A stretch of 64,000 nucleotides of DNA from Prostheceraeus crozeri (taxonomy: Eukaryota; Platyhelminthes; Polycladida; Euryleptidae), in NCBI GenBank assembly GCA_907163375.1, contig CAJQUW010007774.1:124001-188000 (forward strand), read 5' to 3'. The position numbers and the translations under genes are program-made. Below the pieces are notes generated by a model. That model did not search any database. It had not been told where the DNA came from and was given only the letters and a program-made list of their open reading frames with translations. Below, piece after piece: positions 9,101 to 44,904 of this stretch. The stretch's first letter is position 1; each line of letters starts with the position of its first letter.

Positions 9101-12100
9101 TAAAGAAATGATAGTGTGACATTTGATTGGAATCTTTGTTTTATGTTTTGCAGCCGACCGATGTCATTTCTGTAGCGAAGGTTACCGAGTGCGCTAGACA
9201 AGCGGTTCAGTACTTATCAGTAAGTTTTGATAATTTTCGGCTACCCGATGGAAAGTAGTAACTATGAATATTTTTAATTTAAGTAATGCAGGATCCATCT
9301 TGAAACTTACAGTATAATCTTGTAATTGGAGGGCACTGGATTGTGCTCTATGCTTCGGGATCGTTTGATTAGTAACCTGAAAATAAAACATGATTAATAA
9401 ATTTTACTGAGACAGGTCCTCAAGCTTTTTCGCATGATATCAAACATGTTTACAATGTGCGCTCATAAGTCCTGTGTTTTGTCCAAGAAATAATCATGGC
9501 TTTCTGTCCTTGACTTTTTACAAATCGATTATCAAAAGAATTCTTTCAAGAAGAACTCTTCTCAAATTGAATTTTTATTTTCTAGTACGCCAAAAATTGC
9601 TCAGTCAGCTTACTCGCCAGCATCACATGACTGAATCATAGTAAAGGTCATTCCGATTTTATCAAAAAGTAAAATGGCTTCCATTGGTCTCAAAAGAGAG
9701 GCATATAAAGCTACCGATAGTATGCTGCAGCCACAGAGATGGATTCGCCTGTCGCTGTTACTATAGAGGTGACATGATTCTATCTCAGCCATTGTATTCG
9801 ATGGTAGAGAGAGTGGAAAGATCCGTCTTCTTTTGGCTTGCATGATTGGCCAAGCGCACACAATGCGTAAGGGAACTTGTACTAGGGAACAGCTATCGTT
9901 GTCACACTCAAGACTGAACATCAGCTAAGGTGAACATAACCTATCTTTGACTCAATATTTCTCCGTGATAAATTCATCGAATGGAAGTATCATTCACATC
10001 GTTCGACTCCTCATGATCTAAATTTACTGACTGTGCGTTCAACGTGGTATCAATGATTTAGTTCGTCAGAGTTCAGGCTTGAATTTCATAACGTTCAATG
10101 GAAAATTGATCTTTCTGCCCCTCTGCACTAGTTCTTGGCATGACAAGAATATTAAAGAATGTCGTTTCTAGACCAAACAACACAGACAAAGCAATTTATC
10201 TCTGTGGCTGCAGCACCTCAGCATCAAAGTTTGATTGAATCTAAGCGAAAAGTTGTTGCAGTGCAACTGCTTCCGATGACTTATGAATACTGTAGGCTAT
10301 AAACTCTTACATTTGAAAAGAACTGTAATGTAATATTTCCATTAAACATAAAGATGATAGGTAACCTGCTTCTTGCAGGACGTGAATTATATCTCTAAGT
10401 ATGGCGCACTATTGTTCGATGTGTGGATTTCGTTAGTCGAGTTTTTGTTATGATCGCTTTTTCATGTCATGACGATTAGGTCAAACGTATTACGCCTTGC
10501 ATTTGCTATTTCAATGATTAGAAAACTGAACTAGTTGGCGTATCAAATTCCGTCATTAACTCCACTTTGATAAATGATTTGCTGAACATGAAGTGATTTC
10601 ATGTTACACACATCAAGCCTTTCTCATACATGACAATCCTTGTCTGACGAAACAATATTCAGATGTTTATTTTCTTCAATCCTACAGTAAGATGTATTTT
10701 TCATTGACATTTGAATAACTGTGTTGATTCAGCGCTTATCAAAAGTTGAATTAATTGAATGGTGTTTAATTTCAAAGGTGGCTTAAACTGTTCAGTATGC
10801 GACCTCTAAAATTTAATTAGTGCAAACATATCTGCATAAGAAAGTTGGTATGTAAATGCCATGTTAATTCATTGAACAATTATGTTTCGTCAACCATGGT
10901 GCTTGTGGCAATAAAGACTGATGGGAGCTGAGCGACACCGACCGCAAGCGCAAATAAAAATTTGCTATACAACAATTTGTTTTGTCGATGCTTCCATTTT
11001 GACTTCAATGTCGATGTGAACCGGTTTTCCTTTGATCGTGAAATGTAGATTTGAAAAAAGTTTGACTTGACTGCATATAATCAACGAAGGTTTTTGGCTG
11101 CACCAAATATAAATTTCATAACTGAGTTAGTCCAATTTACATTTCATTTTTCAGTTATTTCATTCAACGTAATTGGTAAAGGAAGACTCATGAAGTCATC
11201 ACTGAATAAGATTTATTAAAGTATGATCGTAACATAAGTCATGAAACACATAAACATATGTTAAGGTGCGAAAATTGATTTCACTGGTCCGGCCTAATCA
11301 CGTGGTTAAGATATCTTATTATCTATGCAGAAATCAAATGCTGAATCATTTGAAATCAGAAGTTTAAGTAGACTACATACAACACTCCTACAGATTACGT
11401 TGAACATTCGTAACTCTCACTCCTCGTTTAGCGTCCTTGAGTTCCCTGACGGAGTTGGACAGTTGATTACTCGCTCGGTCCAGGGCAAGATCTTAATTGA
11501 TTTTGCCCTTGAGATCTTCTTTGATGCAGCTCCTCCCTGACTTCTTCAGTCTCCCTGCTGGTTGGCGACCATCTACTTCCATCTCTTCAAATTCTTTCAC
11601 GATGTTGTCCGCTCTCTTCACATGTCGAAACCAGCGGAGTCTACTTTTACGGATCGTCACCTATAAGTCCCTCAGACCACACCGTTTTAATACTTCATCG
11701 CTTGGGATCCTGTCTCTCCATTTTACACCTGCTATGAGGCGGGAGCATCGTTAGGTCATATGTTTTCAAGGTGTTAATCAATTTGATTGTCAGAGGAGAA
11801 CAGATCTTAAGCATGACTGGTAGACTTGTCCTCGGCATTTCGATCGGATTCCTCTGTTCGTTAGGAGATTGGCAAGTTCCCTCCATTTTGACCACGTAGT
11901 AGCTATGCGAGTTCTCTCGACACCAGTATCCCTGTCAAGCATGTCTCCAAGGTAGCAGAACTGTTGGACCTCTTGAACAATACACCCATTTGCCGTAAGC
12001 GAGTCGTCATCTTCTATGTTTACTTGATCTTGTCTACATTTTCGTCATATATAAGAACTCAACACTCTGAGTGAAGCTAACCCGGAGCATCTGAAGTGGC

Positions 12101-15100
12101 ACCAACTATTGCAGGCCGAACACGGAATCAAGTTCTGATCTACACCTTTTCTGCAACATTAGCATGGGCATCTACCCTTCCGCATCATCTCGGTTCCTTC
12201 TTCCCCGTGACTTGAATAGAACTTTTGTCTTTTCCATGTTGATTTTGAGACCTCTGTTTTCAAAGCTAGATTTAAACATGGACAGGGCTTCTGCTCTTGT
12301 TTCTGCAATCAGTACGAGGTCGTCAGCGTAACACATGGGGAAAAGAACAAAACAATCGTGGAATGAGTGCAGTGTCTGGTATGTATTTCCTGCACTTCCT
12401 TGATTCTATAACAAAAAAGCCTTGAAGGAAAAATCGAAACTTGCTTTTCTTTACATTACTCCTTCCGATGAATTAATTGCGGATTTAGTAAAAGATTAAG
12501 AAAGTGATTCATTGGCATTCAATTAATAAAATTTCGCTATTGAGAAAAGAAAATAATGACGGATTTTTAATAACAGACGAACCAGTTATCCGTTAATTTA
12601 TCAAAACAAGAGTCACCGATAAAATTCACTAGCTCCGTTGATGAAACTTCATGTAATACCTTGAGGTACAAGCACAACTTGACTTACCCGTGTATGGGGC
12701 ATTTCTTTTAACCCTCACTCATTGATTTTTTCACAGCAAGGAGATAGATTTATGATATTTTTATGAAAAATTGAGGCAATGCTTCAAATGTGCACATTAT
12801 ATTGAAAGAGGTACGCACGCATTTTCACACACCTCTAACAAAAGTACTAAATTTCCCCATGAGTATGAACTAATTTTCGGTTTAATGATAAAAATATCAG
12901 AGCTAATATCAGAGGAATAAATGACAGAATCGACTTTTTCAAGAGATAAAGTATAAATATTGCGAATGAATTTATAAAGGAGCACGTCTGTAACAAATAC
13001 ACAAGTCTCTAGATGAAAAATGGCGGCTGCTCTAATAGCAATGTTTATTTTCGAAGCCATTCTGATAGCTTTGTTTTCAGATAGACATCATATTTTGTGG
13101 TGATAGTAATTTGAAGGTAAAAAGATTTAAGATTAATTTATCACTACAAGAGGGACATTGCTAGCCCAAATGACCCAAACATTTTCATTTCTATGACGTG
13201 CTCAAAATATCGCGTTTTTTATCAAACCCACACAATCATGTTAATGGAAATAAGCTAGTTATTAAATAAGGGTACCGCATGATTACTGCCTCATGGTAGA
13301 AATAGTCTATTCTAATTTTTAGCATAATGATCAAGGACTTGAGAGGCACATAGGAGATACAACAGTACTTGTTTTATTTCAAGTTTTACTCGAATTGCCT
13401 CGTAATTTTATCTAATCTTTTTTTTTAAAATTTCGAACTTGTAGATCCCTCCTCAAATATATGATTGAGGCACTGCCACCAACCCTAGGGCATGCCTTAG
13501 TCCTTCGAAGTTAGACCGTGATGAAAACGCGGAGAAGTGACTTCACGTATCCGGTTTTATATATGTAAATACGAACAAAGTAAAAAGGAAACAAATATTC
13601 TTCGGAAATAAAATATTATTGAAAAATAGGACGTTCTTGATCACTTGATTAAAATCCCGAAATAATTATGGTCGGGATCCTTGGATTGCGATGCTTACTG
13701 ATGATGCCTTCTGATAAGTGGCATAACATGAACCTTCATCAGCTCCTCCTGCACTGCCGTGCTGGACGTGTTGATAGGGCACTTGCTAAGCCTAGTAGCT
13801 GACTTGTGTTTGAATCTGATCAAATGAATTGTGTTCGGGAAGGCAATCTGGACGCAGTCTTTGGCGTCCATATAGATTCGTGGACTTCTATGTTAATCAC
13901 GACGCTATGTCGCATGTATGTATGAGTGAATCAGAAGCCTGACTATTTCAGTATGTGCCTTTCAATTCAGAAATGAGAATGGTTTTACAACTTGAGCATG
14001 ATATAAAAATAACTTTTCAGAAAAATGTTCACGCCACATCTTTCGTCAACTTCTTCGTGGACAAAGTTATTCCAGTGCTCGCAAAGGTCCCACGCGAAGA
14101 CGCCGATGCTTCCCAGGTGAACGGAAATTCGACTGCTTTGAACAATCCACGTCTGAGTCTTCTTCGAGCATTTTCACAAATGTGCATTCATCATGGTAAG
14201 AGTTTTACATTATAATAGGCTAAGTTGAATTTGGAATAAGAGTGAACATAAATGATTTATTGCAAACAATAGTCCTCGCTAATTTCATGCTCGAATATAT
14301 TTGAACTGTTCGAATTGTGTAAGTCAATAGACAAGGAAGCCTTGAAAAAGGAATTAAATAAACTTTTAGAATACTATCAAATTGTCATCAATAACCAAGG
14401 ATGCTGCGTAACTGAATAAAAACCTTATTTGTTGCTAGTTTGATGTTTTTCGCTACCTAGAAATATATTCGCATTATTTTTGTTACAGCCGAAGGAAGTG
14501 TCTTTGTGCGTGTAATAAGCACAGCATTTTCATTCAGGAACCCTACGTTATTTTTTGTTGAGTTCCGTTACTATTTTAAAAATTTCGACTGGCAGCACGT
14601 GATATATGACGAAAAATACACAGAAAGGTCCACACCTTGATACGACCTTTCGTGGTCTTCCAATTCACGTACTGTCGCTTAAGCATCACTTAAGACTTCT
14701 TGAAGCCTCTCATTAAGAGAAATCGTGTTGCTTTCTGTTGACCGGCCTTGACCAGGCTCCCGATCTAAAGTGACTCTTCCTTCTTTGACTTCTTTGCACC
14801 ACCACAGAGCTGTTCGAGTTTTCGCCGACTGACTCCAACAGGTGCCGGTGAATATGCGTGCCTTGTCATCCAGTCTTCCATAACGAGCAAATGACAGCAC
14901 GTTGAGCCTCTAAGTGAGTTCATTGACAAACGTTTCGCTGATGATGCCATCGTGCATCGAACTGAAATCTCGATTTTGACTTGGTCAGTAAAAATCGATT
15001 AAGTGCATTTCGCGGACAGCCTGACAGTCATTAACAGCGACAGTGAAGGTGTTTCAAGGTTTCAATCTAAAAAGAGGAGTTTTTACAATGTGTAGGGAAA

Positions 15101-17877
15101 CATCGATTTCCGATGCATTAGCGTTCTCCCACTGTAAATAGGTTTTCTAAAGTCCAAATCGGGTGCAAATCATTTACTATTAATGCTTCTTCAGGGATGT
15201 AATTTTTTCTTTTATGGATTTCCTTAGACGCCCCAGTTTTATCCAAAAGTACGTTTAAGGAGTTTTAGATGTTGGGGTCACCATTGATCATGCACCACTT
15301 TAGCATCCTCTTTGGAAAAGAGCAAGTGCGGCCAAAGATGTTTTACTTTGATACTTCTATCATCTTACCGGCATATGGGCGCCGTCCTTGCTCATTGGTG
15401 TCCTGATAATTTGTAGGCGCCCTTCCACCTCACAGACACTAATGCCTCATTGGCGCCCTGTTGCCTCATATTCCCCTTCTGCGAAAAGTGTCCACACCAT
15501 CTTCATGTCCGCCTCGTCAGCCTATTAAGCGCTTTCATCAAACTCTTAGTTCCGAACCCCTCATCTATCACCTTAGTATCTCACATGCTTCCACATGCAA
15601 CTCATAATCGTCGTGCTGCTTCAAAGGCACCCTCCTACCTGATACGGGCCATTGCTTCAACGGCTCACAGCTCCTCATAGACACCATCAATTGATCTATT
15701 GATACCTTGTGGTATTTGAACTACATGTATGCAGGATCTAGACCAGAATTTGACAGTGTTTTGCCTTTACCCTCCCCCTGGGATTATTGAAATTTCTCAT
15801 AGTTATCCACTGCATATTCTTTCTATTGTACGTCACGAGGCACTGAAAAGTAGGTCGTTTCAGACATCCATTTTTGATTATTTGCAGAGAATGAGAACTA
15901 TCAAGTTTGTTTAATAAAGAATCAATAAAATGCTTTCCTGCTGACCATAGCTTTTCTGCCATTATAGCTAGGCTTGGATGCTACTCTGATTTATTTGTCA
16001 AATCACATCAGCTGACTTCTTGATATTTAAGATATTGTTTGAGAGGATCACAGCTGCTTGTCATATGTCCATCAGTCGCGTGATGACAAAATTGAATGTG
16101 ATTTCTTGTCTCAAGAACTTTGAAATCTCGTTATCCTCAGGGGTCCGGTGTCAGAGATAAAAGAAGATAGAGCCTCTATGCTCCTCCTCGCTTTGATATG
16201 CTACCTGGGTGATTAAAAAGTGGTAATTTCTGAAATGCCTTCCCTGAAAAATGGTATTGTACTAATGCTGTATGAATAAATCAGTATTCAATCTATCCTT
16301 CTTCCCTTCCCCTTTTACGCGTATGGACCCCAACTAGCAACTCATTGCCTATTGGGGAACCACATGGACCACGATTGATAGAAACATGGAGGGTTCCCTC
16401 TCCTATCTGCTCCGCTTTCCCTGTCTGATATTTCCTTTGACGCCAACATGACCTAATCACATCCAAACCCAGCAACCATAAATAGTATCTTACAGATTTC
16501 ATTTTCTCTACAATTAAATTGCAAGGCGCATGTTAGTTAGCCAGAGTTGTCATGCTCCAGCTAAGTATTCTAGACATACTTATATGAATACATCAACACA
16601 TGTTTCCACTTTCTTAATGTGAATTCTTTATTTCAGGGCCGCAGTTTGAAGCCACGGATAGTCATATTGAAACAGTGTTCAACGCATTGATCACAGAAAT
16701 GCCACTTCCGTCCTCCTCAGATGCTGAGCAATCATTAGAAGCAACGAAAGATGGAGAGGATGAGATAAAGAATGATCTTCATTTTAGCGAAGTTGAATGC
16801 CTTTTATTTGCCCTTCATCGTATCGGAAGATTAAACACAACTTACATCTCCAAAGACGAGGACAGGCTTAAGGATTTTCGGGCGCGTCTACAGTACTTCT
16901 CCAGGTAAAGTCAGCGATTTTACGTTGCAATCGAACTTGAATGGCAACATCTCTTACTAAGTGGTGATGTCAGATGAGAGCTGAAAACGAAATGCGAGTT
17001 TTTTTATTCATGTTAATTAGTACATGTATTTTAGGACTGAATGCCTCCGAGTAGGCATTGAAGCCACAGTTCTTTCACAGAAAATGAGAAATTCGGTAAC
17101 GCTGTGACCTTAATGACACCATGGTAAACACCGGCTCGTGCTGCAGTCTAATTGCTGAAGTAGGACCGAATTCAATTGAATAATTGTCACTTAAGTTCAT
17201 TCTCGGATATTTTTTTCGGCTGTAGTATCATATAATGCTCCATATCCGCACCTCTCCTTGTCTAAGCAATGTAATTTATATCAATTGTTTCGCATCATAG
17301 ACAAGAGGAAGCAGATAGGACACACGAACCTATTTATACTTCATTCGACTCCCGTGTGATCTATTAGAATTCCGTTAATAATTTGTGTTTTGCTTGTGAA
17401 TTGAACTTAATGATCAATGTTTTTAAAAACCAATAATAAATGATTCATGCATGATAGCAATTACATAATCTTTTCTTTTCTTGCAGAAGAACCGACATTT
17501 ATCTGCGATCACTTCAGTCAGCTTTGCAATCCAAGACGAAGGAAGAATTAAATTCTGGTGATAACAAACTTCGAGTAGTTGCTCTAAAACTGACAAACAA
17601 CATCAATCATCTTATCCGCGATCTCTTCAAGAATCCCATCTCATATAAATCGAACGTTAATCTCTCATGGATCTCACCGAATTCCGCATCTATCACTGCA
17701 GATACTGCTCTAGGAAAGCGACCGGCAGCTTATGTTGAAGATACAGCAACAGATGGTGATGTGAAGCGCCGAGGTTTCGAAAGAACTCCTTACAGACCAC
17801 CGATGGGAAAGTATTCTGACAGAGCTGGTGCTCCTCCATCATTTAGGGGACGTGGTGGAAGGGGTCGTCGATATTAA
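6029..17877 (+). CDS. API5: API5, apoptosis inhibitor 5 (AAC-11), eight exons
   Basis: Coding exons are 6029-6112, 7636-7902, 8039-8293, 8935-9084, 9154-9219, 14021-14195, 16637-16904 and 17487-17877. All introns are GT-AG, and the exons sum to 1,656 bases, exactly 552 codons with the stop (551 residues; family members are about 500-525). API5 is a nuclear HEAT/ARM-repeat scaffold that suppresses apoptosis after growth-factor loss. Family hallmarks are MTVPTVEDLYKAYDV at the N-terminus, LDLCEDE..IRRQAI-type helices (here DLCEDEEVIIRRQAI), VECLLFALHRIGR, FRARLQYFSR, NKLRVVALKLTNNINHLI and ISYKS.V.LSW. A basic, NLS-like stretch (about residues 498-516) and an RG-rich tail ending RGRGGRGRRY close the protein. 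The ATG at 6029 lies seven bases inside the first coding exon and gives the conserved family start. I see no frameshift or missing block, so the gene appears functional. Confidence 0.96.
6320..7440 (+). mobile_element. dead Penelope-like element in API5 intron 1
   Basis: Broken reading frames in order carry a reverse-transcriptase motif-B-like stretch (MGSHFASVFAMLYMNF, from 6362), a degenerate catalytic motif RHIDDKIVI (from 6480), and a GIY-YIG nuclease core (KICNDSYIGLTNRTFSVRYA, about 7029-7090) preceded by an in-frame stop. A PLE-type C-terminus follows (SQKPALNRKHEQQ, ending 7291). The order RT then GIY-YIG is specific to Penelope-like elements. Downstream, 7372-7398 holds a CTTGATAAA / GGTC..GACC hairpin / GAAA motif like the one in other PLE tails of this window. 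Several frameshifts make it a relic. Confidence 0.7.
7636..7902 (+). CDS. API5: API5 coding exon 2 (residues 29-117)
   Basis: Acceptor TTGCAG ends at 7635 and donor GTATAT starts at 7903. Encodes the first HEAT-like helices, including EKRLASQFIARFF and DLCEDEEVIIRRQAI, the best-conserved stretch of the family. Phase 0 at both ends. Confidence 0.95.
8039..8293 (+). CDS. API5: API5 coding exon 3 (residues 118-202)
   Basis: Acceptor CATTTTAG ends at 8038 and donor GTGAGT starts at 8294. Encodes ALVKLLAQDARATLNGIFTQ and RESAIKFLSVQLKRLPEE, matching the family's third helical block. An acidic insert (NNDSEDNGDETRSNS) makes this copy longer than the vertebrate protein. Confidence 0.94.
8414..8650. 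mobile_element. hAT-type MITE in API5 intron 3
   Basis: About 237 bases with imperfect terminal inverted repeats: CAGGGATGGGATCGGTTAAA on the left and CAGGGCTGAGACCGGTTAAT read from the right. The subterminal sequence is rich in AACCGGTT. Flanks GAAGAAAG and GATAAAAG match at 6 of 8 positions, an eroded 8-base target duplication. Non-coding. Confidence 0.6.
8935..9084 (+). CDS. API5: API5 coding exon 4 (residues 203-252)
   Basis: Acceptor TTCACAG ends at 8934 and donor GTAAGT starts at 9085. Encodes ILEDVSEDEFLQLITILASL and SLTGRQNLVNLISEQ, both family hallmarks. Confidence 0.94.
9154..9219 (+). CDS. API5: API5 coding exon 5 (residues 253-274)
   Basis: A 66-base exon between acceptor TTTTGCAG (to 9153) and donor GTAAGT (9220). 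Encodes KVTECARQAVQYLS, equivalent to the CTRQAVPLFS stretch of the family. Confidence 0.92.
9220..11489. other. first part of API5 intron 5, nothing recognised
   Basis: AT-rich intron sequence. The longest ORF (103 codons, - strand, 9610-9921) has no family motif and lies inside the intron. Confidence 0.5.
11490..12360 (-). pseudogene. non-LTR retrotransposon (LINE) reverse-transcriptase relic in API5 intron 5
   Basis: Read on the - strand, 12360 down to 11490 gives the RT catalytic motif CYADDLVLIAETRAEAL, then SSFENRGLKINMEKTKVLF. After frameshifts comes the C-terminal RLRWFRHVKRADNIVKEFEE and EVDGRQPAGRLKKSGRSC. YADD followed by GLKIN..KTKV and then RLRWFGHV is the signature of LINE polymerases. 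The copy is 5'-truncated and broken, opposite in orientation to API5. Confidence 0.7.
12361..14020. other. remainder of API5 intron 5, nothing recognised
   Basis: AT-rich. A weak tRNA-promoter-like stretch near 13785-13830 (ACTTGCTAAGCC...TTTGAATC) could be a decayed SINE, but it is too diverged to claim. Confidence 0.4.
14021..14195 (+). CDS. API5: API5 coding exon 6 (residues 275-333)
   Basis: Acceptor AACTTTTCAG ends at 14020 and donor GTAAGA starts at 14196. Begins KNVHATSFVNFFVDKVIP, a conserved motif. Ends one base into a glycine codon completed by the next exon. It follows the 4.8-kb intron 5. Confidence 0.94.
14690..14960 (-). pseudogene. mariner transposase N-terminal relic in API5 intron 6
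   Basis: Two overlapping minus-strand frames carry pieces of the mariner helix-turn-helix region. WWCKEVKEGRVTLDREPGQG and the following GRSTES resemble the family pattern W..RFKEGRESVEDD.RPGRPS. No catalytic domain remains. Only the N-terminal part is recognisable. Confidence 0.5.
15430..15690 (-). pseudogene. possible LINE fragment in API5 intron 6
   Basis: On the - strand ADMKMVWTLFAEGE resembles the RLRWCGHFMQME stretch of the LINE at 60.5 kb, and the nucleotide words AGTGTCCACACCATCT are shared. The rest of the segment is uninformative, so this is weak. Confidence 0.25.
16637..16904 (+). CDS. API5: API5 coding exon 7 (residues 333-422)
   Basis: Acceptor TTATTTCAG ends at 16636 and donor GTAAAG starts at 16905. 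Encodes ALITEMPLP, an acidic linker, VECLLFALHRIGR and DFRARLQYFSR, all conserved in API5. Ends two bases into an arginine codon. Confidence 0.95.
17487..17877 (+). CDS. API5: API5 coding exon 8 and stop (residues 422-551)
   Basis: Acceptor TTCTTGCAG ends at 17486 and TAA is at 17875-17877. Encodes the last helices (LRVVALKLTNNINHLIRD), an NLS-like basic region and an RG-rich C-terminus, as in animal API5. Confidence 0.95.
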
Positions 17878-18330
17878 CCACCCTTCGTGTAAATAATTAT
17901 TTAATCAAATGTACCAGTTTGACATTTGTACGAAAGTGAAACTCTCACATGTTTTATCCATATACGACTGTGCACTGATTGCAAATCAATTATCTGTCTT
18001 CGCGAAGAAACGAAAACGGGGTATCGAGGTGGCGAGAAGCAGAAAATCACGTAAGTTTACCTGAAGCCGGTGAGTTTTTGAGCTCTGAAGGTTATGCAGG
18101 TGTGAAGGTCGAAATCATTCATGTGATTTCCAAGTTGCACGTGAGTATGACTTCTGCATACAAGTTAGCGATTCAAGGAAACGAAGACGATAAACTTCTG
18201 CATTTGAAATTGATCGCGTTCTCAATTCATTGAAGGTATGTTCATGATTTTTGAATAGCAGCAAAATTCAAGGTAAGAACGTTCCAATTCGTTTTTTGTA
18301 TTGTACATTATAAAGGTAAAAATTTGGATG

Positions 18331-18446: not shown

Positions 18447-19109
18447 GAAAAATGAAAGCATCATGTCATCGGTTCTTGAAAATATAAGGAAAAGTCCCAT
18501 CCAGAAATCGTAACTTTTTTGAAGGAAAATATGTGACTATGATTTAGCGGGCCTACTAGAGATTGACTTTTGGGTGATTAATCACGCGTTATCCAATGTG
18601 ACGAAAATAGCGATAATAACGTAATATAAGTGATTTCTATTGATGGTCTTCGTGTAAAGATATTCAAGTTTTCTTCGAAATACTCAGACGAACGCACTGT
18701 GACATGCCACGCGTACTGGAGCACCCAAACATCCGTACGTGTGTGAAGTTAGCGGAACTATTTTGTTAAAGCTTAATTCTAATCAAAACAGCTGCTATGT
18801 TGTCAATTTCAGTCTCCTGATTACGAATCTGAGCTCAGATTTCACAAATTCACAGTCGTTTTTGAGAAATTCAGGTTTAAAGATAAAAGTGGTTCCGCTG
18901 TGAAGTTAGCCGAACCATCCAGCGAACCAATTGCTGAGTCTCGCTGAACGACGCAGTAAATCAATTTCTTTTGGTCACTACCCGATCAATTTTGATGTGC
19001 TGATCACGAATATGTGCCTCATCTTTCAAAACAATGCAGATTTCACCCGGAAATCTGAATCTCACTTTTTCTGCAAGCTGATTGTGAAGTTAGCGGAACC
19101 ATTTTTTAA

Positions 19110-20395
19110 CCCTTTGAGCCCGGTTACCATTTTTACATCCCCTTCCGTATTCCTGAAGAAATTATCTTAAAAATGTTTTTTTTATTTCATTGAGTTCTGT
19201 AGCTCTCACGTAAAAATATCAGTCACAACAGTTCACTTGAACGTTTGAGTATAATCTAAAGTTAATTGCGTAGTGACTGTTGTTCAAAGGTAACGATGTA
19301 TAAAATACCAATACAAGATAAATTAATTAAGTGCAATTTATTCTTAATTTGTAGTTTTAATTTGTCATATAGAATTTTCCTGTTACAAGTGAAATATAAT
19401 AAAACTCAATCCCATATGGGTTTCAGGCATGTCACAATTATAAAGATTGATGCCATGTTGGAAAACAGTCAAGACAGAGTGGTGGCCTGTCTGTACACGT
19501 GTCACAAAAGTATCTGGTGTCCTTTCTTTGATTGGAAGCTACGCAACTTCTGCATCTTCTCTGGGGGGTTTCCTTCTTTTCGGTAGGAGGAAACCGTACT
19601 GGACAATGAAGATTTTCCTTGTTATCTTCGGTGTTCATTCGTCATGACTTAAATCGTTTTCTTTGAGGCTCAGAAGCAACAGTTGCAAAATGTAAAATAG
19701 CTCTTCGTGTAAAGTCCAAAAATTAAATTTTTTCTTGTTCTCGGCAGTATGAAATATGCGCGTTCAATAATAGTCGCTGTAACATATGCAAACCAAGTTT
19801 TTTGAACCAAGCATGCGTTCGGCGTACACAACTCACGCCCGAAATGATTTGATCGCATTTGTCAATACCGGACATTGTAGAATTATACGTATCAATGGCT
19901 GTTGGCTTTTCATAATTCAATACATTGCCACCAGGCAGAAATCTCTCTTTCTCAAGTGCTCCAGCTTTGTCGACAGTCGAAATGCGATAGATATCTCTTT
20001 TGTCACAGAAGCGAACGATCAATATGTTATTACGAATGAATGCACTTGAGATGGGATTCATATTCTTACCCTTCAATTCCGCTGGCACTCCTCTATTTAC
20101 TCGGATGGTACCACGCAAGCCGGTCTTTCTCGTTGTCATTTGGCGCAGAATTGAGGTCACACACTAGCAAATATCTAAAGTTGTACTGTGCACAGCCGCT
20201 ATTGGCTAGAGGCACACTTGCCATCTGATTGGTTGTTACAATGGCCTTATCATATTCCTGATTACAGTTGCTGAGTGTACAGTTAATTCCTGACAAAGTT
20301 GAACTATAAATAACACAATCAGAAACCTTGACGTACAGGTACGTCATAGGAATGTGTAGGAGACGTACGGATACACACACGTACGGACGTACGGG
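19110..20395 (-). mobile_element. piggyBac DNA transposon, internally deleted (copy 2)
   Basis: Exactly flanked by TTAA (19106-19109 and 20396-20399). Ends are CCCTTTGAGCCCGG on the left and CCCGTACGTCC read from the right. The opposite arm of the host foldback keeps the uninterrupted site (ACAAAG / TTAA / AAAATGG at about 23905-23920, - strand sense), proving insertion after the foldback formed. The transposase N-terminal half is missing. Confidence 0.88.
19438..20160 (-). pseudogene. piggyBac transposase, C-terminal half, frameshifted
   Basis: The first frame (20160 to about 19723) reads GLRGTIRVNRGVPAELK, RFCDKRDIYRISTVD, KPTAIDTYNSTMSGIDKCDQ and AWFKKLGLHMLQRLLLNAHI. These match the piggyBac catalytic domain around its last aspartate (the D of MSGID). 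A frameshift or stop follows, and the cysteine-rich C-terminal domain continues in another frame at 19638-19438 (CRSCVASNQRKDTRYFCDTC, then CLDCF..WH). Lacking the N-terminal half and the first catalytic aspartates, it cannot be active. Confidence 0.85.
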
Positions 20396-21619
20396 TTAAC
20401 ACAAAGAATTTCTCAGCAAAATCCATCCTCTCCTACTAATTTGAAGCTCCTAATAACAAATCTGTAATCAGATTTGCAAAACTCGCCCGCATTGCAAAGA
20501 TATTCCTCTATCTGGGTCCGCTGTGAAGTTCGCGGAACCACCTACTGGCATTAAAATTTCAAATTCTAATTTTTGCAGAGAATCACTGCAGACATACCAG
20601 GAGAATGAAATTGATTCACTGATCACGGTTTGCCGTCCGATTTCACGGGAGGATAAGTACTTGCCGAGAAAAATTGATTTTACGGTTTTCATGGACTTTT
20701 CTGCAAGCTGATTGATGATAGTAGCCATCGAGTTTAGTCGATAATGAAATCAAAATTGCGGAACTCGAATAAGCCTTTATTATATATATCGCACAAATTT
20801 TCGGCCGAAGCCTTCATCAGGTGCATAAATTCTGAATAAACGGCTGGCATGTCAAAAGGTCGTAGAACATTAATCATACAGAGAGTGTCACGGTGTGGAA
20901 TCGATATGGAATAGATATTGATACTGACATTGTCACTGTCTGAAATACACATGAAGACACTGGCATTGTCACAGTGTGAAAGATAAAACAGAATGCTAAA
21001 ATGCTGACAGGCAAGAACTGAATAAAACATTGTACAACGATGACAATATTTACAAAACCATATTAAATAAACTTAATCAAAAATGAAAAACATACACATA
21101 AATAAATAAATAGATAAATAAACAAAAAAATTATAAGATAGAAATGAAAAAAAAATTGGAAAAAAATAATACTAAACAGCAACAATATAAAAGGGAGATA
21201 AAACACAGGAACAAACAAAAAAAGAGCAAAAAGAATAGGAGGTCAACATATGTCTAGTAACTCACGCCCAAGGCACCCATTCATCAAATTGCCTTGTAGT
21301 CGACGTATATGTGTAAAGCCTCTACTGAGCGCCTAACATTTGGATGGCGCAAATTGCGTTCAACAATTCTCCAAGAGAGTGGTATGGAGGCTGATGAGCG
21401 AGAAAAGCGCATGTGGTGAACATCAAACATGCGCTTAAATATTGGGGAAATACTCCACACTCAAATGTTCACTAAATCTGGAATACATAGTTAACATATT
21501 AAATCACTTCATAGCGGCTGTGTCATGCCTTTTGGTCATCTTTCGTTCCCTATTCACAAAAGATTGGTGTACTTATTGGTAAACGACATCGTTTATGTGG
21601 GATCTGTTCAGACCAAGAG

Positions 21620-22084
21620 ATGCTCTATGATGCTCTTATTACTCTTGGACTACGATTCCAGGATAATGGTTTTCCGGAGCATATTGTCCGCAGATACTTG
21701 ATCAATGAGCGACCTGGAAGAGCAAGGAACTTTTCAAACGAATTTCACTCAAAAGTAAAACTATTTTTGCCTTATCTTGGGGATAAATTCTGTAATCAAT
21801 CTCGACGTCTCCTCAGGCTTAATGGATTTGATTCAAAAGTGCATATTATTTTCAGAAACAAACCACCACTTTCGCAATCCCTGCAACCAAGACGTGGTTA
21901 TCGTAGATGTGCCGATAACTGTATTTCATGCAAATGTGCTTCGAAACCGGTGACTGTTTCTCAATTTATTGTTTATGAGATTTGTTGCAATTTATGCCAA
22001 CGTAAAGATATTAGTGAAACCTGCAGAACTATGTATTCCAGATTTAGTGAACATTTGAGTGTGGAGTATTTCCCCAGTATTTAA
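21620..22084 (+). pseudogene. Penelope-like protein, C-terminal remnant (connector and degenerate GIY-YIG)
   Basis: 154 codons with no N-terminal RT. After the connector region come a cysteine-rich stretch (CADNCISCKCA) and VYEICCNLCQRKDISETCRT then MYSRFSEHL. This corresponds to the PLE nuclease pattern VYxxxCxxCxxxYIGxTxRxxxxRxxEH, but the YIG residues have decayed to DIS. The frame then runs into the inverted-repeat arm and stops at 22082-22084. Confidence 0.7.
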
Positions 22085-22529
22085 GCGCATGTTTGATGTT
22101 CACCACATGCGCTTTTCTCGCTCATCAGCCTCCATACCACTCTCTTGGAGAATTGTTGAACGCAATTTGCGCCATCCAAATGTTAGGCGCTCAGTAGAGG
22201 CTTTACACATATACGTCGACTACAAGGCAATTTGATGAATGGGTGCCTTGGGCGTGAGTTACTAGACATATGTTGACCTCCTATTCTTTTTGCTCTTTTT
22301 TTGTTTGTTCCTGTGTTTTATCTCCCTTTTATATTGTTGCTGTTTAGTATTATTTTTTTCCAATTTTTTTTTTCATTTCTATCTTATAATTTTTTTGTTT
22401 ATTTATCTATTTATTTATTTATGTGTATGTTTTTCATTTTTGATTAAGTTTATTTAATATGGTTTTGTAAATATTGTCATCGTTGTACAATGTTTTATTC
22501 AGTTCTTGCCTGTCAGCATTTTAGCATTC

Positions 22530-22977
22530 TAGTGGAATTCGTCGGAAAGACGTCGGAACGAGGTATGGTAGTCGGAAAAAGGTCGGGAATTTTTTTTGAC
22601 CCTTAACATGTTAATTCTGACCTCATTTCTTTGAATTTAAGCAGAAATTATGATAAAAATGGTTTTTTTGATTGAGTTAATTGTAGCAAGACATTGAAGA
22701 CATGAAGACGTGCGGATATTATTGTGATGGTATTGATTACTCAAACAAGCTTCAGAAAGGAAAAGGAAAATATATAACACTTAATTCCTGATCAATTGAC
22801 GTTTTCATGTAATTCCATAGACATCCTACTTGTGAAATAGCAGATAGGAGGCCTAGGGTGTCTTTTTTATAATGAGGCTTCAGTTTCCGACGTCGTACCG
22901 ACCATCGGCCATGCGGACATTCTGTTCCTCGGCACGAGTTCGTTTTCGACGTCGGACCGACGTATCTTTTTGTAGTG
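22530..22977. mobile_element. 448-base insert with GTCGG-rich ends
   Basis: Found by comparing the PLE arms: the left arm is continuous where the right arm holds this segment. Its ends are rich in GTCGG/CCGAC (for example GTCGGAAAGACGTCGGAACG near 22540 and its counterparts near 22890-22965), and the right end read inward begins CACTACAAAAAG. No transposase inside. Possibly a non-autonomous DNA transposon. Confidence 0.45.
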
Positions 22978-23313
22978 GGATGTGTATTTCAGACAGTGAC
23001 AATGTCAGTATCAATATCTATTCCATATCGATTCCACACCGTGACACTCTCTGTATGATTAATGTTCTACGATCTTTTGACATGCCAGCCGTTTATTCAG
23101 AATTTATGCACCTGATGAAGGCTTCGGCCGAAAATTTGTGCGATACATATAATAAAGGTTTATTCGAGTTCCGCAGTTTTGATTTCATTTTCTGCAAGCT
23201 GATTGTGAAGCTAGCGGAGCCATTTTTCAATACAAAGAATTTCTCAGCAAAATCCATCCTCTCCTACTAATTTGAAGCTCCTATGCACAATAGCTACAAA
23301 GCATTGCAATCTT

Positions 23314-23529
23314 TTAACAATGAAGCGATTCTGAATCCTTTTTAGGACAACATGAAAGTTTTTCTTTAACTAACCTCGTAATTACAAACAACAACAAAAA
23401 TGGAGAAATTAGCGATACCAGCGTTCCGATGGACGAACACTTGTAAACCGTTTTCTTCAAACATCTGTTGACTTCAGAGGCACAGCAGCATGCACCGAGA
23501 AGGAAAGCGCACAGGAGGTAATTCCACAT
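23314..23529 (-). CDS. small putative membrane protein inside the foldback (71 aa)
   Basis: Starting at the ATG at 23529 the frame reads a signal-peptide-like start (MWNYLLCAFLLGACCCASEV) and a short Cys/Lys segment. A hydrophobic span follows (IGTLVSLISPFLLLFVI), and then a basic and cysteine-containing tail ending in SESLHC and TAA. The hydropathy pattern suggests a single-pass or secreted small protein. I do not recognise a family. The codons upstream of this ATG are in the foldback arm sequence, so this is the more natural start. It could be a captured host fragment, an element-encoded peptide, or chance. Confidence 0.35.
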   Translation of the reverse strand: MWNYLLCAFLLGACCCASEVNRCLKKTVYKCSSIGTLVSLISPFLLLFVITRLVKEKLSCCPKKDSESLHC

Positions 23530-24268
23530 TGTGATGGTGCAATAGAATTGTGCTGTAATAAATGATGGTTCGGCTGATCTGCAGAGGGTTGGATTTTGCA
23601 GAGATTCCGATGAAATCCTTGAAAACCGTAAAATCAATTTTTCTCGGCAAGTACTTATCCTCCCGTGAAGTCGGACGGCAAACCGTGATCAGTGAATCAA
23701 TTTCATTCTCCTGGTATGTCTGCAGTGATTCTCTGCAAAAATTAGAATTTGAAATTTTAATGCCAGTAGGTGGTTCCGCGAACTTCACAGCGGACCCAGA
23801 TAGAGGAATATCTTTGCAATGCGGGCGAGTTTTGCAAATCTGATTACAGATTTGTTATTAGGAGCTTCAAATTAGTAGGAGAGGATGGATTTTGCTGAGA
23901 AATTCTTTGTATTAAAAAATGGTTCCGCTAACTTCACAATCAGCTTGCAGAAAAAGTGAAATTCAGATTTCCGGGTGAAATCTGCATTGTTTTGAAAGAT
24001 GATCGAGGCACATATTCGTAATCAGCACATCAAAATTGATCGGGTAGTGACCAAAAGAAATTGATTTACTGCGTCGTTCAGCGAGACTCAGCAATTGGTT
24101 CGCTGGATGGTTCGGCTAACTTCACAGCGGAACCACTTTTATCTTTAAACCTGAATTTCTCAAAAACGACTGTGAATTTGTGAAATCTGAGCTCAGATTC
24201 GTAATCAGGAGACTGAAATTGACAACATAGCAGCTGTTTTGATTAGAATTAAGCTATAACAAAAGAAT

Positions 24269-24853
24269 CCTAGTCATTTAGGCCCCAGAAATAATGGTCA
24301 TTTAGGTCCCATGTTCTATGTTATTTTAACTACAAGATTACAGTCAAAACCAAGAAAATGTTATGATACATAGGAGCCATACATTACAGAAATATGCTTG
24401 GTTTCATCGGAGATGCCGCAGATGTGGTATGTTGATTGTTCGAGAATGTCAAAAACACCGGTTCATGATGTTATTTTAGCCACGACGAGTTGCAGCGTGT
24501 ATGAGGTATCAAAAGACTGCAAATTTTCTTAAACCACCAGAAATGTCAATACTTTTACAAGAAATTGTAATAGTTGTAGGGGCCTATTTAATTAATTAAA
24601 TAGCAATAATTCAAAATTAGACCTCATACACGCTGCAACTCGTCGTGGTTAAAATAACATTCTGAACCGGTGTCTTTGACATTCTCGAAACAATCAACAT
24701 ACCACTCCCTAGACAATTCTGCGACATCTCCGATGAAACCAAGCATATTTCTGTAATATGGCTCCTGTTTTGACTGTAGTCTTGTAGTTAAAATAACATA
24801 GAACATGGGGCCTAAATGACCATTATTTCTGGAGCCTAAATGACTGGACACCT
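24269..24853. mobile_element. 585-base foldback/MITE nested in the right foldback arm
   Basis: About 240-base imperfect inverted repeats (shared words GTCATTTAGG, CAGAAATAATGGTCATTTAG, GCAGCGTGTATGAGGT) surround a 110-base AT-rich spacer. The 8-base flank AAAAGAAT occurs at 24261-24268 and 24854-24861. The left foldback arm lacks this sequence, so it is an insertion. No coding sequence. Confidence 0.7.
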
Positions 24854-25086
24854 AAAAGAATAGTTCCTCTGGGTGGTTCCGCTAACTTCACACACGTAAC
24901 ATCCGTGGTTAAAGACATTCTATGTGCTGTACTGAGTCAGAAAGCACTTGATCTGATGCTGTTAAAGACATGGAGAATGTTAATGAATACGCGCGGGCGA
25001 GCGTTTATGGTTTGCGCGTCGTCTACAGTTGTATATGCCATGCCGCTTGAACCACGGATGAACCACTAAGCATGTTCTGTCTTCCC

Positions 25087-26204: not shown

Positions 26205-26832
26205 CCACGGAATTCTAGAGGAGCGGAAGCGAAGGCTGCCAGCACTACTTCTCCACGCAGGCCTGTGAATATGAGTATCCATTTTTCATATTGATTTGTG
26301 AAGAAACATGAAATCAAACCATGCAAATACAGCATAATTACATCGTCAACACACAAGTTGCACATCATTTTTATTTCTTCGACGTTTTACATTGAAGTTT
26401 ACGAAGTCTTCGCTCAGTTGGCAAACTGTCCTTATTAACTAAGGGGTTGACATTTAGCCGTTTCAAAATATTACGCGAAAACAAATTAAACATTTTTCTT
26501 GCCAAAATCTGAAAGCACAAATGTCCTCTAATGCAACATGCATTAGCAAGTAGCGGACAAGAGTCAGATATGACAAATGCTATTGATTTGATGCAGAGTT
26601 CCTGATGCTTATCCTTCCGTATGAAGTCGCCTACCGTCAAAACAGGCGGAAACGGCAACATCATCGATGTGTTTCTCACACAATGCATACATGCACACAA
26701 ACTAGCTGACTTTTCAATCTCGCATTGGAAAAGTAACTCGACACGCTACTGACAATGCCTCGGCCTGCGTTCATGAGCGACCATTTCATTCCTCCAGTAG
26801 CTTTCGCTTCCGCTCCTCTAGAATTCCGTGGC
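26205..26832 (-). mobile_element. possible small element with 32-base inverted repeats and transposase-like tail
   Basis: CCACGGAATTCTAGAGGAGC continues into GGAAGCGAA at 26205-26235 and recurs inverted at about 26796-26832. Between them a - strand frame (26700-26371) ends LARKMFNLFSRNILKRLN and RRLRKLQCKTSKK. That resembles the basic C-terminus of P-element/THAP-type transposases only loosely. The two repeats match almost base for base. Confidence 0.3.
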
Positions 26833-26845
26833 CTACTCGTAGACC

Positions 26846-29261
26846 TGGTTCTTAATAGAAAAATGTGACCGATTATATGGCCTATTACCACGCTGTCCAG
26901 AAAGCACGATATAACGGTTAGGCTGTAATGTTAGTGTTCATATAGCTTACTTGAAAGTTACGAATGCTTTCGAACGATGTAGGGTTCATTAGATGTACGA
27001 CATGATCATACCCATTGAGGCAATTCGAGGCATAATTGATGATGTCATCCACACCATGATTGAAGAGCACCCAAAATTTAGGGTGCTCCTGTGCCGGAAT
27101 ATATGATTCACAGCTTTTATGTGAGGCATACTTAGTAGCGGAGTCTTTAGTCCCGTAGTAAACAAACCAGGGAGAATGGCGAGTTATAGTTCAAATAAGC
27201 CCCCATTAGATATCTGAAGAGATTAAAACAATGTCTGTTTACGGATAATACTGATTTAATCATTTTCTTAATTACTGAGCTATGAAACACATCGCGAAAT
27301 TATGATATCACAGTAGCAAAGATAAAATTCAGAAAAAATCAAATTCAGACAATTTTAAAAAGGCAAGTACATTATGAAACGCTCAGTCAATAAATGTGCG
27401 AGCAATACTCTCTAATCGTACTGAGATACATTTGCAGCCTGATAATTTCGAAGACAAAAATTTAAGAAAATATTTAATCTCAATTGAATCGGTTGATCCT
27501 GATTGTAATGGCTGCAAATTGGCTACATATGGAGGCGAGCTAGTGGATTCAAAAATTTGCTAGCTCTGGTGCTTTTTCGCTAGCCTTTTGCTGATTACGT
27601 ACTCAGGCACAAAATACAAGCGAATGAACCTGGGAAAATCAGCAGTCCTTACGGCTGCACGATCACCAAAACCGCATAATCACATTGCGCATTACACAGA
27701 AAATTGTCTTTTGCAGAGATGTCTCTTTTCCAAAAATCCGGAATTAAACGCTTTTACAGGGCTATATCAAAGTTTAAGTCGATCAGATGTCTGATTGAGA
27801 GTCAGACACAAAATGCAAAATATAAGGAAGTTCCCTTGGCGCTGAATTTCTGTCACTACTATCATTTGCACATAAAGTATATTCGCTGACTTCAAAAAAG
27901 CTAAACATCTGATTTTCATCAAAAGGTTTACGGTGCAGCCTATACGATAACAAAAGAGACTTCATGGTCCTTTATTATATTATGAGACAGGAAAAGAGAA
28001 GGTAATAAAATTATATCTCATGAATTCGTGCACTGCATAGAATGAAATGAGCTATTATATGGAATACATGGACCAAATATAGTACCGTGAAAAATGTGAT
28101 ATTTTGTTAGTATCTTTAATGATTTGAAACGACTGAATTGAGGCGCACGCAGATCAGTTATTAATGCATTAAGGGTATAGCATTGAAAAGGAAACTTCCT
28201 CGTTCAGGAAACTTCAGTTTGCCACGAATGATTAACCAAGTTACAATATAAGAGATCATTAGAAAATTCAGGACATAGCTATAAAATTCTATCACAAGGT
28301 GTAGCAGCCTAACTTTTTCATTTTGAGAATTTTCGTGATGCATAAATATTTCCCATAATCTACTTGCCTTTTTTCTATAAATTTACAAATGATTGCTTCG
28401 ATTCAAAAGATTAATTTCTGTTTCTTTTTTCCAAATACATGATGCAAACATCGAAGATCACAAAAGCTATAAGAAAACTCATCTGTTCATGATATGAAAC
28501 ACGATTTCTATCCGATTGTCAAAGACTGAATTAATAAGTAAAAAATTACCGTTGCACTAAAAAACTATCGCAATTTGTTTGGTGTGAAGAGTGTGGAAGG
28601 GAATTTCACAACATCTTTTTGTGACGAAATGCATCGAAACGTTTTCAAATGGACGTTTATCAATCAATATTTGTCATTTGACAGGGAACTTGTCAACATA
28701 TCGTCTCTCACAAGTGAGACAAATTCTTAACCGTCCAGTCAGTTCACTCTGATCAGCTGTGAATTGTAAGGACTGTGGAGGACAAAAATGTGGCCTTAAG
28801 CAACGTTGGCATTGAATCCGACCACATTCCCAGCAATGGCGCTGAAAGACAAAAGCCAGACAATTTGAATGAGCACAAAAACATCAGTGCAAATTATATA
28901 TGATATTTTTGATGATCAAATGATATATTTGATTTACTTTAAGATAGTAGCAAAACTAATTCTAACTCAGCGAATGCCCTACCGCAAGTTTAGTCAATAT
29001 TTGATCTCGGAATTTCAATGCAAAATAATCGAGTTGTGGTTCTGTAGTAGAAATTCATCGCAAAACGACTAGTAATTCCCTTCTGTGTGTATAGTAATAC
29101 TAATACAACTCCCTACTTTAAAAAGTTTAATCAGTAGGAAGAAACTGTTCGCCAGAACATCTCAGGTTGGAAATAGATCTGCTCAGAACAAGTGTATGTG
29201 CAACAAGGTAACTTAATATTTGCGTGCAAATTAGTTAACACAGCAGATATCTATATCAATT
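26846..29261. other. intergenic, nothing recognised
   Basis: AT-rich with only short ORFs. A small perfect hairpin (GAGCACCC..GGGTGCTC, 27063-27087) is the only structure noted. Confidence 0.5.
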
Positions 29262-30870: not shown

Positions 30871-30982
30871 CCTGACCAGTGTAGATTGTGACATGCGAAC
30901 CTGGTTTCGACAGACTGACTTCTCTATTTAACTTTGTCTTCGTTTTGTACGTTCCATACGAATTTATGCCTAGCCCCATATA

Positions 30983-32740
30983 CAGGGTGTCCGTAAAGTC
31001 GCTTGACTTTTAAATTGAATATCTACATGAGAAAGCAATAAACTTTTTTATCACAAGCCATGTTATATTGCGCAACATAAAGGGGAATTTACGAATCTAA
31101 CAGTAAGAAGCTAATATTTGATGATTAAAATGTTCAAATCAAGTGTTCGAAATGATTGCCATCGCAATCAATCGCCGAATAATATCGAAAACACCAGCGG
31201 CAAATTCTTCGCGTGTGACTTCATTGCAGATATCAGTGATCTTCTCACTCAACTGGTCCAGGCTTTGTGGCTTACCATGATGGTATATCTTCGCTTTCAT
31301 CCATCCCCAGAACCAAAAGTCGAGAGGATTCAAATCAGTTGAACATGGAGGCCACTCTCGGTCACATCCTCGACTTATCACGCGATCATCAGATGTCTGG
31401 ACGAGGAAGTTCCGTACCTTTGTTGCAAAGTGGGGTGGGGCACCACCTTGCATAAATATACAGGATGACAGTTTGCGCTTTTGCGCAAGTTGAGGACTCA
31501 CGTGCTCCTTAAGCATCTGGAGATAGGAATCAGCTGTCACTGTGTTGGAGAAGAAAAAAGGTCGTAGTCCAAACTTAGCAGAAAATCCCATCCAGACACA
31601 TAACTTAGGTGAATGAAGGGATTTTTAGATGCATGTTGATGGCTTAACATCTGACCAGATACGGCAATTGTGCGTGTTAACGATCCCATCGAGTGAAAAA
31701 TGCGCCTCGTCAGACCACACAATGTCATCGATTACATTCTGATTGTCGAGAAGCCATCTCGCAAACTCTAAGCGCTTTGGCTTGTCGCCGGCTCAAGTCC
31801 TTGCACGACTTGTAATTTGTACGGGTAAAGTTTTAGTTCATGCCGAAGGATTTTATGGACACTAGTCTTTGAAATGATACCAACCTCTTCTGCCACTTTG
31901 CGAACTGACGTGACTCCTAGCTTTGATTTTGAACTAGTCTCCTCGACGACGCGATTCACAGTTGCAATTGTCATGTCATCCATTGTAGGACGGCCACTGC
32001 GAGGTTTATCATTAACGCTGCCAGTTTCTTCAAACTTTTTGATGATATTTGCAATCGATGTTGTTGTAAAAGGATCTCTGTGAATGCGTCTTTGAGTCTT
32101 AAACATTCGAAGGGCAGCTGTAGCACTTCTATTGCATCCATAGAAGCACTGAACTATCTCTATCCGAGTCTGAAGATCCATTGTTAATAAGATAGGCAGC
32201 GATCGTACCACTTCACATTGAGATTTCGAACATAGCATGACACACGCGTCTTTGTCATTGGTTAGCGAAAACATAAAGTCATAGATATGGGATATGGCAA
32301 TTCTATGCCATGAAGGCTGATTAATTTGACGTTCTCAATTGAAGATGATACGATATGAATCAATCAATGACTAAGCATGTCGTCATGGCTGGTGATGGAA
32401 GTTTCATAGTATTGAATAGGGGAAAATTTTGAGCTATGGCCATAGGTAAGGTTAATTGACATAATTAACAGCACAGCTAATTGACTTAAACATTTTCTGA
32501 AACTGAAGTGAATTCACCAAAGCTTGAGAACTATAATTGCACATATTATATTCATTACAAAAGTGACTGCATGCAGAATGTAAAATTTAAGAAGTTAAAT
32601 AATCGAATATTCATTTCTTATTGCTAGATTCGTAAATTCCCCTTTATGTTCGTAATATAACATGGCTTCTGACGTAAACGTTTATTGTTTACTCATGTAG
32701 ATATTCAATTTAAAAGTCAAGGGACTTTACGGACACCCTG
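30983..32740 (-). mobile_element. DD41D (rosa-like) mariner transposon, inactive copy with both ends
   Basis: Ends CAGGGTGTCCGTAAAGTC on both sides, flanked by TA (30981-30982 and 32741-32742). The terminal repeats extend imperfectly for about 140 bases. Total 1,758 bases. The transposase gene on the - strand fills the middle. Confidence 0.88.
31139..32181 (-). pseudogene. DD41D mariner transposase, inactivated
   Basis: The frame starts MDLQTRIEIVQCFYGC at 32181, with an N-terminal helix-turn-helix and the linker DKPRSGRPTMDD. A frameshift near 31790 leads to the catalytic domain: IVWSDEAHFSLDG holds the first aspartate. A TAA stop interrupts before CVWMGFSAKFG. The second aspartate region reads MQGGAPPHF where the family has QDGAPPH, so that catalytic residue is lost. 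The third lies in DLNPLDFWFWG, 41 residues after the second position, which is the spacing of the DD41D (rosa/Visitor) group. One frameshift, one stop and one lost catalytic residue make it dead. Confidence 0.85.
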
Positions 32741-32742
32741 TA

Positions 32743-44160: not shown

Positions 44161-44444
44161 AATGAATTGAAATTAACGATGGATTAAATGCCACGCAAAA
44201 GATCCACGGCTGATAGGACTAGACTCGAAACTACGACCCCAGGTTGTACAGTTATGGCCATAAAGATCCGACCACCCACACACTTTTACGTTAACAATAT
44301 TTCAAAACATGAAATTCCTTTCCCTAGTGCATTATATTTCGTTGCGAAGACTATTAAATCTTAGAAAGTGTATAAAAGTAGAAAATTGCGCAGATGGGAT
44401 CTAAAATATCGCAGTTTGACTGAGAGATCAATATTTTGTTGCTA

Positions 44445-44732: not shown

Positions 44733-44904
44733 GCTTACATGCGCGATGTTAAAGTGACAATGCAGAAAGTCACAACATTCACTGGTCTTTGTTCTCAAGC
44801 AGCCAATCAACAAGCAGTTATTTTACTATCAATCGATCGTTAATAACAGACGAAACAACGTCCAATGAATCGAAGAAAGACAGTGTTGAACATCCTTTCA
44901 AGAA

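Follow-up and report, generated by a model that had tools for sequence, protein, structure and literature searches.

In a 64,000-nucleotide stretch of the genome of the polyclad flatworm Prostheceraeus crozeri (contig CAJQUW010007774.1, positions 124,001 to 188,000, referred to here as the window and numbered from its first letter), a large foldback element occupies positions 18737-24897 and is itself split by other mobile elements. This locus raises two questions, namely to which class the outer foldback belongs and how far the insertions it has received can be put in order. Our analysis indicates that the outer foldback is probably a foldback DNA transposon that is non-autonomous and belongs to the Mutator superfamily, broadly taken (Mutator-like elements or MULEs, including those of Rehavkus or FB type), and that it is older than the piggyBac-type element, the Penelope-like element and the miniature inverted-repeat transposable element (MITE) that now interrupt it.

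Boundaries of the outer foldback

Including its later inserts, the outer foldback measures 6,161 bp. It is flanked by a 9-bp target site duplication (TSD), AACATCCGT, which is exact on both sides, as reported in a preliminary description of this DNA, and of which the window contains one further copy, at 57916 on the opposite strand. Directly inside the TSD, the ends of the element, ACGTGTGTGAAGTTAGCGGAAC, are identical over 22 bp (18737-18758 and 24876-24897). The window was scanned for such structures, defined as inverted ends, 10 bp or longer, immediately bounded by exact direct repeats of 8-11 bp, with 30 first-order Markov copies of the window as the control. No structure of this kind was found in any of the 30 Markov windows. 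The real window yielded 21 rows, one of which is the outer foldback. Sixteen of the 21 lie either in the motif array of the arms described below or within long inverted repeats, in which any palindromic word is bound to score; the long inverted repeats concerned are the outer foldback, its Penelope insert, the other Penelope element of the window and a repeat at 44.2-45.3 kb. The remaining rows correspond to a probable chance pair (11357, 18200) and to three structures that are perhaps small elements (26206-26830, 27262-27471 and 49385-49804). The later inserts, counted with one copy of each duplication, account for 4,374 bp of the element and leave a remainder of 1,787 bp: the outer foldback was originally about 1.8 kb long.

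Structure of the arms

Without inserts, the left arm is 672 bp long and the right arm 692 bp, in agreement with the 680 bases or so estimated at first. The two arms differ at 8 of 672 aligned positions and by gaps of 16 and 4 bp, and are about 99% alike. A 19-bp motif, TGTGAAGTTAGCGGAACCA, recurs along them. A scan that allowed 4 mismatches detected nine copies, all within 2 mismatches, all inside the outer foldback and nowhere else in the window, five being forward on the left side and four reversed on the right. Once the inserts are removed, the copies on the left side are spaced by 157, 184, 149 and 191 bp, and the unit lengths taken from these spacings are 341 and 340 bp. The left arm thus consists of two diverged units of ~340 bp with TGTGAAGTTAGCGGAACCA twice per unit, and a partial third unit (23204-23283) has 4 mismatches to unit 2 in 80 positions.

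The corresponding halves of the two units resemble each other more than shuffled sequences do, since the observed score was reached by 0 of 500 shuffles for A1/A2 and by 2 of 500 for B1/B2. A repeat unit of ~170 bp was also considered and rejected: the four pairs of A and B halves were unconvincing beyond the motif, as 26, 49, 108 and 141 of 500 shuffles reached their scores. Because the A and B halves are not convincingly alike, the repeat unit is ~340 bp and not ~170 bp. Each arm is a tandem array of an end-bearing unit, that is, a composite foldback arm, a structure that has been named foldback or tandem-TIR, for tandem terminal inverted repeat (PMC5225508, PMC4079207, PMC3310237, PMC3169594). 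Tandem Repeats Finder (TRF, score of 50 or more) called no array in 18-25 kb. With long, internally repetitive inverted arms around a short loop, the element has the structure of the FB class. The coordinates of its parts and of its inserts are given in Table 1.

Table 1. Parts of the outer foldback and elements inserted in it (window coordinates).
Feature	Position	Strand	Evidence
Left 9-bp TSD AACATCCGT	18728..18736	.	Exact match to 24898-24906
Left arm, outer part: unit 1 (18742-19082) and start of unit 2	18737..19109	+	Matches reverse complement of right arm; motif copies at 18742, 18899, 19083
Internally deleted piggyBac-type element at TTAA; only C-terminal half of transposase recognised	19110..20395	-	DDE_Tnp_1_7, zf-Tnp_2, flanking TTAA
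Left arm, inner part: right TTAA copy and rest of unit 2, ending in the 18-bp left target duplication (20697-20714) of the Penelope-like element	20396..20714	+	Matches reverse complement of 23613-23915
5'-truncated Penelope-like element with inverted pseudo-long terminal repeats (pseudo-LTRs); tail of about 27 bp on left end only	20715..23187	+	Inverted halves, 18-bp TSD, protein kinship
Putative hammerhead-ribozyme core, left pseudo-LTR	20799..20820	-	CTGATGAAGGCTTCGGCCGAAA
Stop-free remnant of Penelope reverse transcriptase (RT) thumb / GIY-YIG region	21515..22084	+	Score 79 against open reading frame (ORF) 51138-53372; best of 1000 shuffles 62
450-bp insert in right Penelope half, replacing 38 bp of left half	22530..22979	.	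Alignment of the two halves
Putative hammerhead-ribozyme core, right pseudo-LTR	23112..23133	+	CTGATGAAGGCTTCGGCCGAAA, same core
Right target duplication of Penelope element (23188-23205) and incomplete third unit, oriented as the left arm	23188..23290	+	76/80 positions like start of unit 2
Loop (internal domain), ~300 bp, with ATG...stop ORF 23314-23529 (-), 71 aa	23291..23590	-	Hydrophobic, signal-peptide-like start
Right arm, inner part, ending in the left copy of the MITE duplication (8 bp, 24261-24268)	23613..24268	-	Matches reverse complement of left arm
Palindromic MITE with 8-bp duplication AAAAGAAT (24261-24268 / 24854-24861)	24269..24853	.	Alignment, duplication
Right arm, outer end, opening with the right copy (8 bp) of the MITE duplication	24854..24897	-	22-bp end identical to left end
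Right 9-bp TSD AACATCCGT	24898..24906	.	Exact match to left copy

The loop and its open reading frame

The loop holds no recognisable transposase: none of the five stop-free segments (50 aa or longer) overlapping it matched Pfam at E up to 1. The preliminary description likewise saw no matching transposase. Among the 24 of 44 listed stop-free segments that were scanned against Pfam, in whole or in part, a clear domain was found only in the two piggyBac pieces, and no MULE domain was detected. Weak Pfam matches (E 0.08-0.22) in segments of the arm, of the Penelope junction and of API5, the gene that adjoins the foldback upstream, were taken as chance.

The short ORF of the loop, which starts with MWNYLLCAFLLGACCCASEV, had no match in Pfam or PDB, and no parent copy was found within the window. 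Of 3000 Markov loops, 5.1% contained an ORF of such length and 0.17% contained one whose start was also as hydrophobic; of the 55 ATG ORFs of the window with at least 71 codons, two have such a start, the loop ORF included. It should be noted that this feature was selected after it had been noticed and that hydropathy is the only property computed. Because the feature was noticed first and tested afterwards, these figures are a hint, and we regard it as possible rather than probable that the loop ORF is a real captured host exon.

Probable assignment to the Mutator superfamily

MULEs are described as having 8-11-bp TSDs and often long TIRs (PMC6446971), and both the exact 9-bp TSD and the long inverted arms of the outer foldback fit this description. 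Judged by TSD length and arm structure, the class suggested in the preliminary description, "Mutator-like or foldback", is indeed the best one. Several points weigh against this assignment. Neither a transposase nor a second copy of the element was seen, and the length of the TSD and the style of the arms are all that the superfamily assignment rests on. Duplications of 9 bp also occur in some Merlin elements. No 9-15-bp tandem repeats such as those of Muta1 or Tm1 were called by TRF in 18-25 kb, and the Tm1 motifs are absent from the arms and the loop (C and D at up to 3 mismatches, A1 and A2 exact). Furthermore, a 9-bp TSD is also listed for Rehavkus, together with TIRs of 26-400 bp, a minisatellite before the 3' TIR and a PHD-finger transposase (PMC6446971). 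In this comparison the TSD of the outer foldback fits, its arms are longer than those listed, and TRF found no array in the element.

It is unlikely that the outer foldback belongs to another superfamily, P/Galileo-like or hAT-like, and has a 9-bp duplication by happenstance. P/Galileo elements make duplications of 7 bp and hAT elements duplications of 8 bp, lengths that the exact 9-bp TSD does not match, and to our knowledge the terminal bases of the foldback agree with no P or hAT consensus. Long, internally repetitive arms do exist outside MULEs, since the TIR of Galileo (P superfamily) has long direct repeats and several transposase sites, and binding of the transposase to these repeats was measured (PMC3688188).

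A Merlin-type or otherwise undescribed superfamily that makes 9-bp duplications appears quite unlikely. No transposase is known for the ends of the foldback, and a 16-base word of the motif and end was not found printed in the literature searched. The exact 19-mer of the motif gave no stretch in viral_contigs (viral) or in genome_contigs (bacterial and archaeal), collections that are not of animal genomes, so that this result says little. However, foldback arms of composite structure, together with a 9-bp duplication, are what has been described for MULE/FB elements, and a new superfamily is not required. That the locus is no transposon, and is instead genomic DNA duplicated in inverted orientation, with flanking 9-mers that coincide by chance, is highly improbable: only one copy was seen and inverted duplications exist, but the perfect 22-bp ends abut the exact TSD, an arrangement with no counterpart in the Markov windows, and the end motif recurs at each arm unit.

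As a Mutator-superfamily foldback, the element would be of a known kind, and its family may itself be undescribed. A bolder proposal, which we consider doubtful, is that it represents an undescribed animal family with ~340-bp end units bearing paired transposase sites and a loop with a captured signal-peptide exon, an animal "Pack-foldback" that would spread a ready-made secretion exon. In one survey, none of the animal reference genomes included was reported to have a Pack-MULE (PMC8277862); capture of host genes in animals is nonetheless described for FB4 in flies (PMC8277862) and for Muta1 derivatives in mosquitoes (PMC5225508). If the loop ORF is a captured exon, it would add to the animal examples in which a MULE-like element has captured a gene.

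Later insertions and their order

The piggyBac-type insert matches DDE_Tnp_1_7 (E=3e-11, profile positions 221-349 of 349, at 19723-20160) and zf-Tnp_2 (E=2.6e-7, at 19438-19641), and thus combines a TTAA duplication with an IS4-like transposase that has a C-terminal zinc finger; the N-terminal part of the transposase was not found in the insert (19110-20395). Its TTAA copies lie at 19106-19109 and 20396-20399, and the right arm has just one TTAA, at 23912, whose context is the same, which agrees with the insertion site and the empty site given in the preliminary description. The right end of the piggyBac element (20374-20396) and the left end of the foldback with its flank (18733-18745) have CCGTACGTGTGTG in common, with 20 of 23 bases alike. 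This likeness is probably due to chance because the stretch is repetitive (CCGTACGT).

The second foldback reported in the right arm does have its 8-base duplication, AAAAGAAT, and is a MITE unlike the outer element: the outer foldback has composite arms of ~340-bp units, whereas the inner one is a simple palindrome whose terminal stretches are unequal in length. Its empty site is also less clean than that of piggyBac, as the uninterrupted counterpart in the left arm differs by a 16-bp gap and two mismatches. Two weak Rfam matches of the MITE hairpin to plant miRNAs (E 0.065 and 1.4, in a search to E up to 5) were taken as chance matches from palindromic DNA.

The largest insert, missed in the preliminary description, is a Penelope-like element of 2.47 kb, which lies between the arms and is bounded by 18-bp copies of TTTTCTGCAAGCTGATTG. 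Its inverted halves (20742-21492 and 22027-23187) differ at 6 of 713 aligned positions and by gaps of 1 and 38 bp. The stop-free remnant is collinear with the RT-thumb/GIY-YIG part of the other Penelope ORF of the window. By BLASTP alone the assignment is weak (E 0.78), but it is firm because of the shuffle test, in which the score of 79 exceeded the best of 1000 shuffles (62). The short tail in the endonuclease frame gave no signal by itself, as 480 of 1000 shuffles reached its score, and no relatives of the two Penelope ORFs were confirmed in viral_contigs. The hallmarks of Penelope-like elements found here are thus the pseudo-LTRs, the tail, the GIY-YIG/RT remnant, which had no Pfam match, and the hammerhead motif, which had no Rfam match, neither at the gathering threshold nor at E up to 5. 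The letters of the core, CTGATGAAGGCTTCGGCCGAAA, and its placement in both pseudo-LTRs suggest a hammerhead ribozyme, presumably in the short-stem-III layout. Four further matches to the core pattern (14938, 21391, 22114 and 34776) were not taken as ribozymes. The core overlaps an ATG, a layout similar, though not identical, to that of an anole Penelope element in which the ORF begins at stem II (PMC11167929). Penelope elements may carry a "tail" of 30-40 bp (PMC11167929, PMC3846280), to which the extra ~27 bp at the left end come close. The segment at 22530-22979 reads CACTACAAAAA inward at one end, and no clean duplication was seen around it. We take this end to be like those of CACTA-type elements.

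The foldback came first and the piggyBac, Penelope-like and MITE insertions later, because the arms are continuous across each insert; the mutual order of the three is not readable. The arms were presumably once near-identical, so that each serves as the empty-site control for the other, more cleanly for piggyBac than for the MITE, and the relative order of the foldback and of its piggyBac and MITE insertions is obtained within one genome. The earlier claim of "datable" nested insertions therefore holds for this relative order and does not extend to absolute dates. Dating by divergence was rejected, since the arms of the foldback (8/672) and the halves of the younger Penelope element (6/713) are inseparable and since any sign of age would be lost through gene conversion between inverted copies.

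Proposed history of the foldback

The foldback would have been cut out and pasted in trans, with the transposase supplied by an autonomous relative that is not linked to it and is either a MULE or a Rehavkus-type element. This transposase would bind the 19-bp motif repeated near each end, a putative site, and several sites per end may sharpen recognition, by analogy with what has been argued for Galileo. The arms may have grown through tandem duplication of the end-bearing unit, and the loop is perhaps a host first exon acquired in the manner of Pack-MULEs, by template switching or during gap repair. Once inserted near API5, the foldback was struck by piggyBac in its left arm, by Penelope at the inner end of the left arm and by the MITE in its right arm. 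Insertions in each arm and beside the loop have probably left it immobile.

Neighbouring gene and other elements of the window

The API5 gene lies on the + strand, and the TSD of the foldback starts 850 bp past its stop codon at 17877. Pfam API5 matches were obtained at 7510-7914 (E=1.3e-23), 16618-16908 (E=1.8e-9) and 17458-17877 (E=1.3e-21, profile positions 386-523 of 536), with a sub-threshold match at 13943-14215 (E=0.028). The pair of 10-bp inverted ends CAGAAGTTTA inside 10-bp repeats CATTTGAAAT at 11357-18200 spans the 3' half of this gene and is most likely due to chance, even though no such case was seen in 30 Markov windows.

A second, better preserved Penelope-like element occupies 49887-53687. 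It has an inverted pseudo-LTR (49887-50295) and direct copies at 50302-50969 and 53020-53687 that are 99.7% alike. Its ORF of 745 codons contains RVT_1 (E=2.2e-10), and TATTTCTTTTTCAT is its likely duplication, 14 bp long. Directly to its left, at 49385-49804, lies a MITE candidate of 420 bp whose ends, GGTACTTCTA, are enclosed by 8-bp repeats, CAAAAAGG. Another MITE candidate, of 625 bp (26206-26830), has 33-bp inverted ends that are 97% alike, with 8-bp repeats GCCTACTC outside. At 27262-27471, an AT-rich stretch of 210 bp has inverted ends of 10 bp enclosed by 8-bp repeats, ATTTAATC; it could be a small element, or the pattern could have arisen by chance. The window also contains a mariner-type element (30978-32745) with inverted ends of ~150 bp, 87.5% alike, and a transposase split into two ORFs, as well as a helix-turn-helix piece of a Tc1/mariner-like transposase within inverted ends of ~200 bp, 90% alike (44239-45332).

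Comparison with known foldback elements

This locus adds a clearly delimited animal foldback with arms made of long units. In FB, compared here by description only, the arms consist of short tandem repeats, unlike the ~340-bp units of the outer foldback. FB and FB4 of Drosophila are otherwise similar to it in being non-autonomous, with 9-10-bp TSDs and internally repetitive TIRs of ~700 bp, and host-gene capture is known for FB4 (Ssk-FB4) (PMC8277862). Tm1 of Meloidogyne, for which a MULE-domain transposase is described, shares with the outer foldback composite TIRs of variable length and 9-bp TSDs, and has non-autonomous members with other loops and a nested element in one copy; by contrast, its arms are made of 13-15-bp repeats (PMC3169594). 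Muta1 of Aedes aegypti, an active "type2 Foldback" MULE, resembles it in its 8-9-bp TSDs, its complex foldback TIR and the variable loops of its non-autonomous derivatives, about 20% of which are alignable to host genes and which may contain pieces of such genes, whereas the Muta1 TIR is 145 bp long with nine 12-bp repeats (PMC5225508). Tetris of Drosophila virilis likewise has 8-10-bp TSDs, tandem repeats in its TIR (TIR-220) and no conserved ORF; its repeats are 220 bp long and have given rise to satellites, whereas the outer foldback has two ~340-bp units and a partial third (PMC4079207). Finally, MULEs with tandem TIRs, which are plant families and are compared here by description only, share with the outer foldback an end-bearing unit duplicated inwards and sometimes carry a gene fragment in the loop (PMC3310237).

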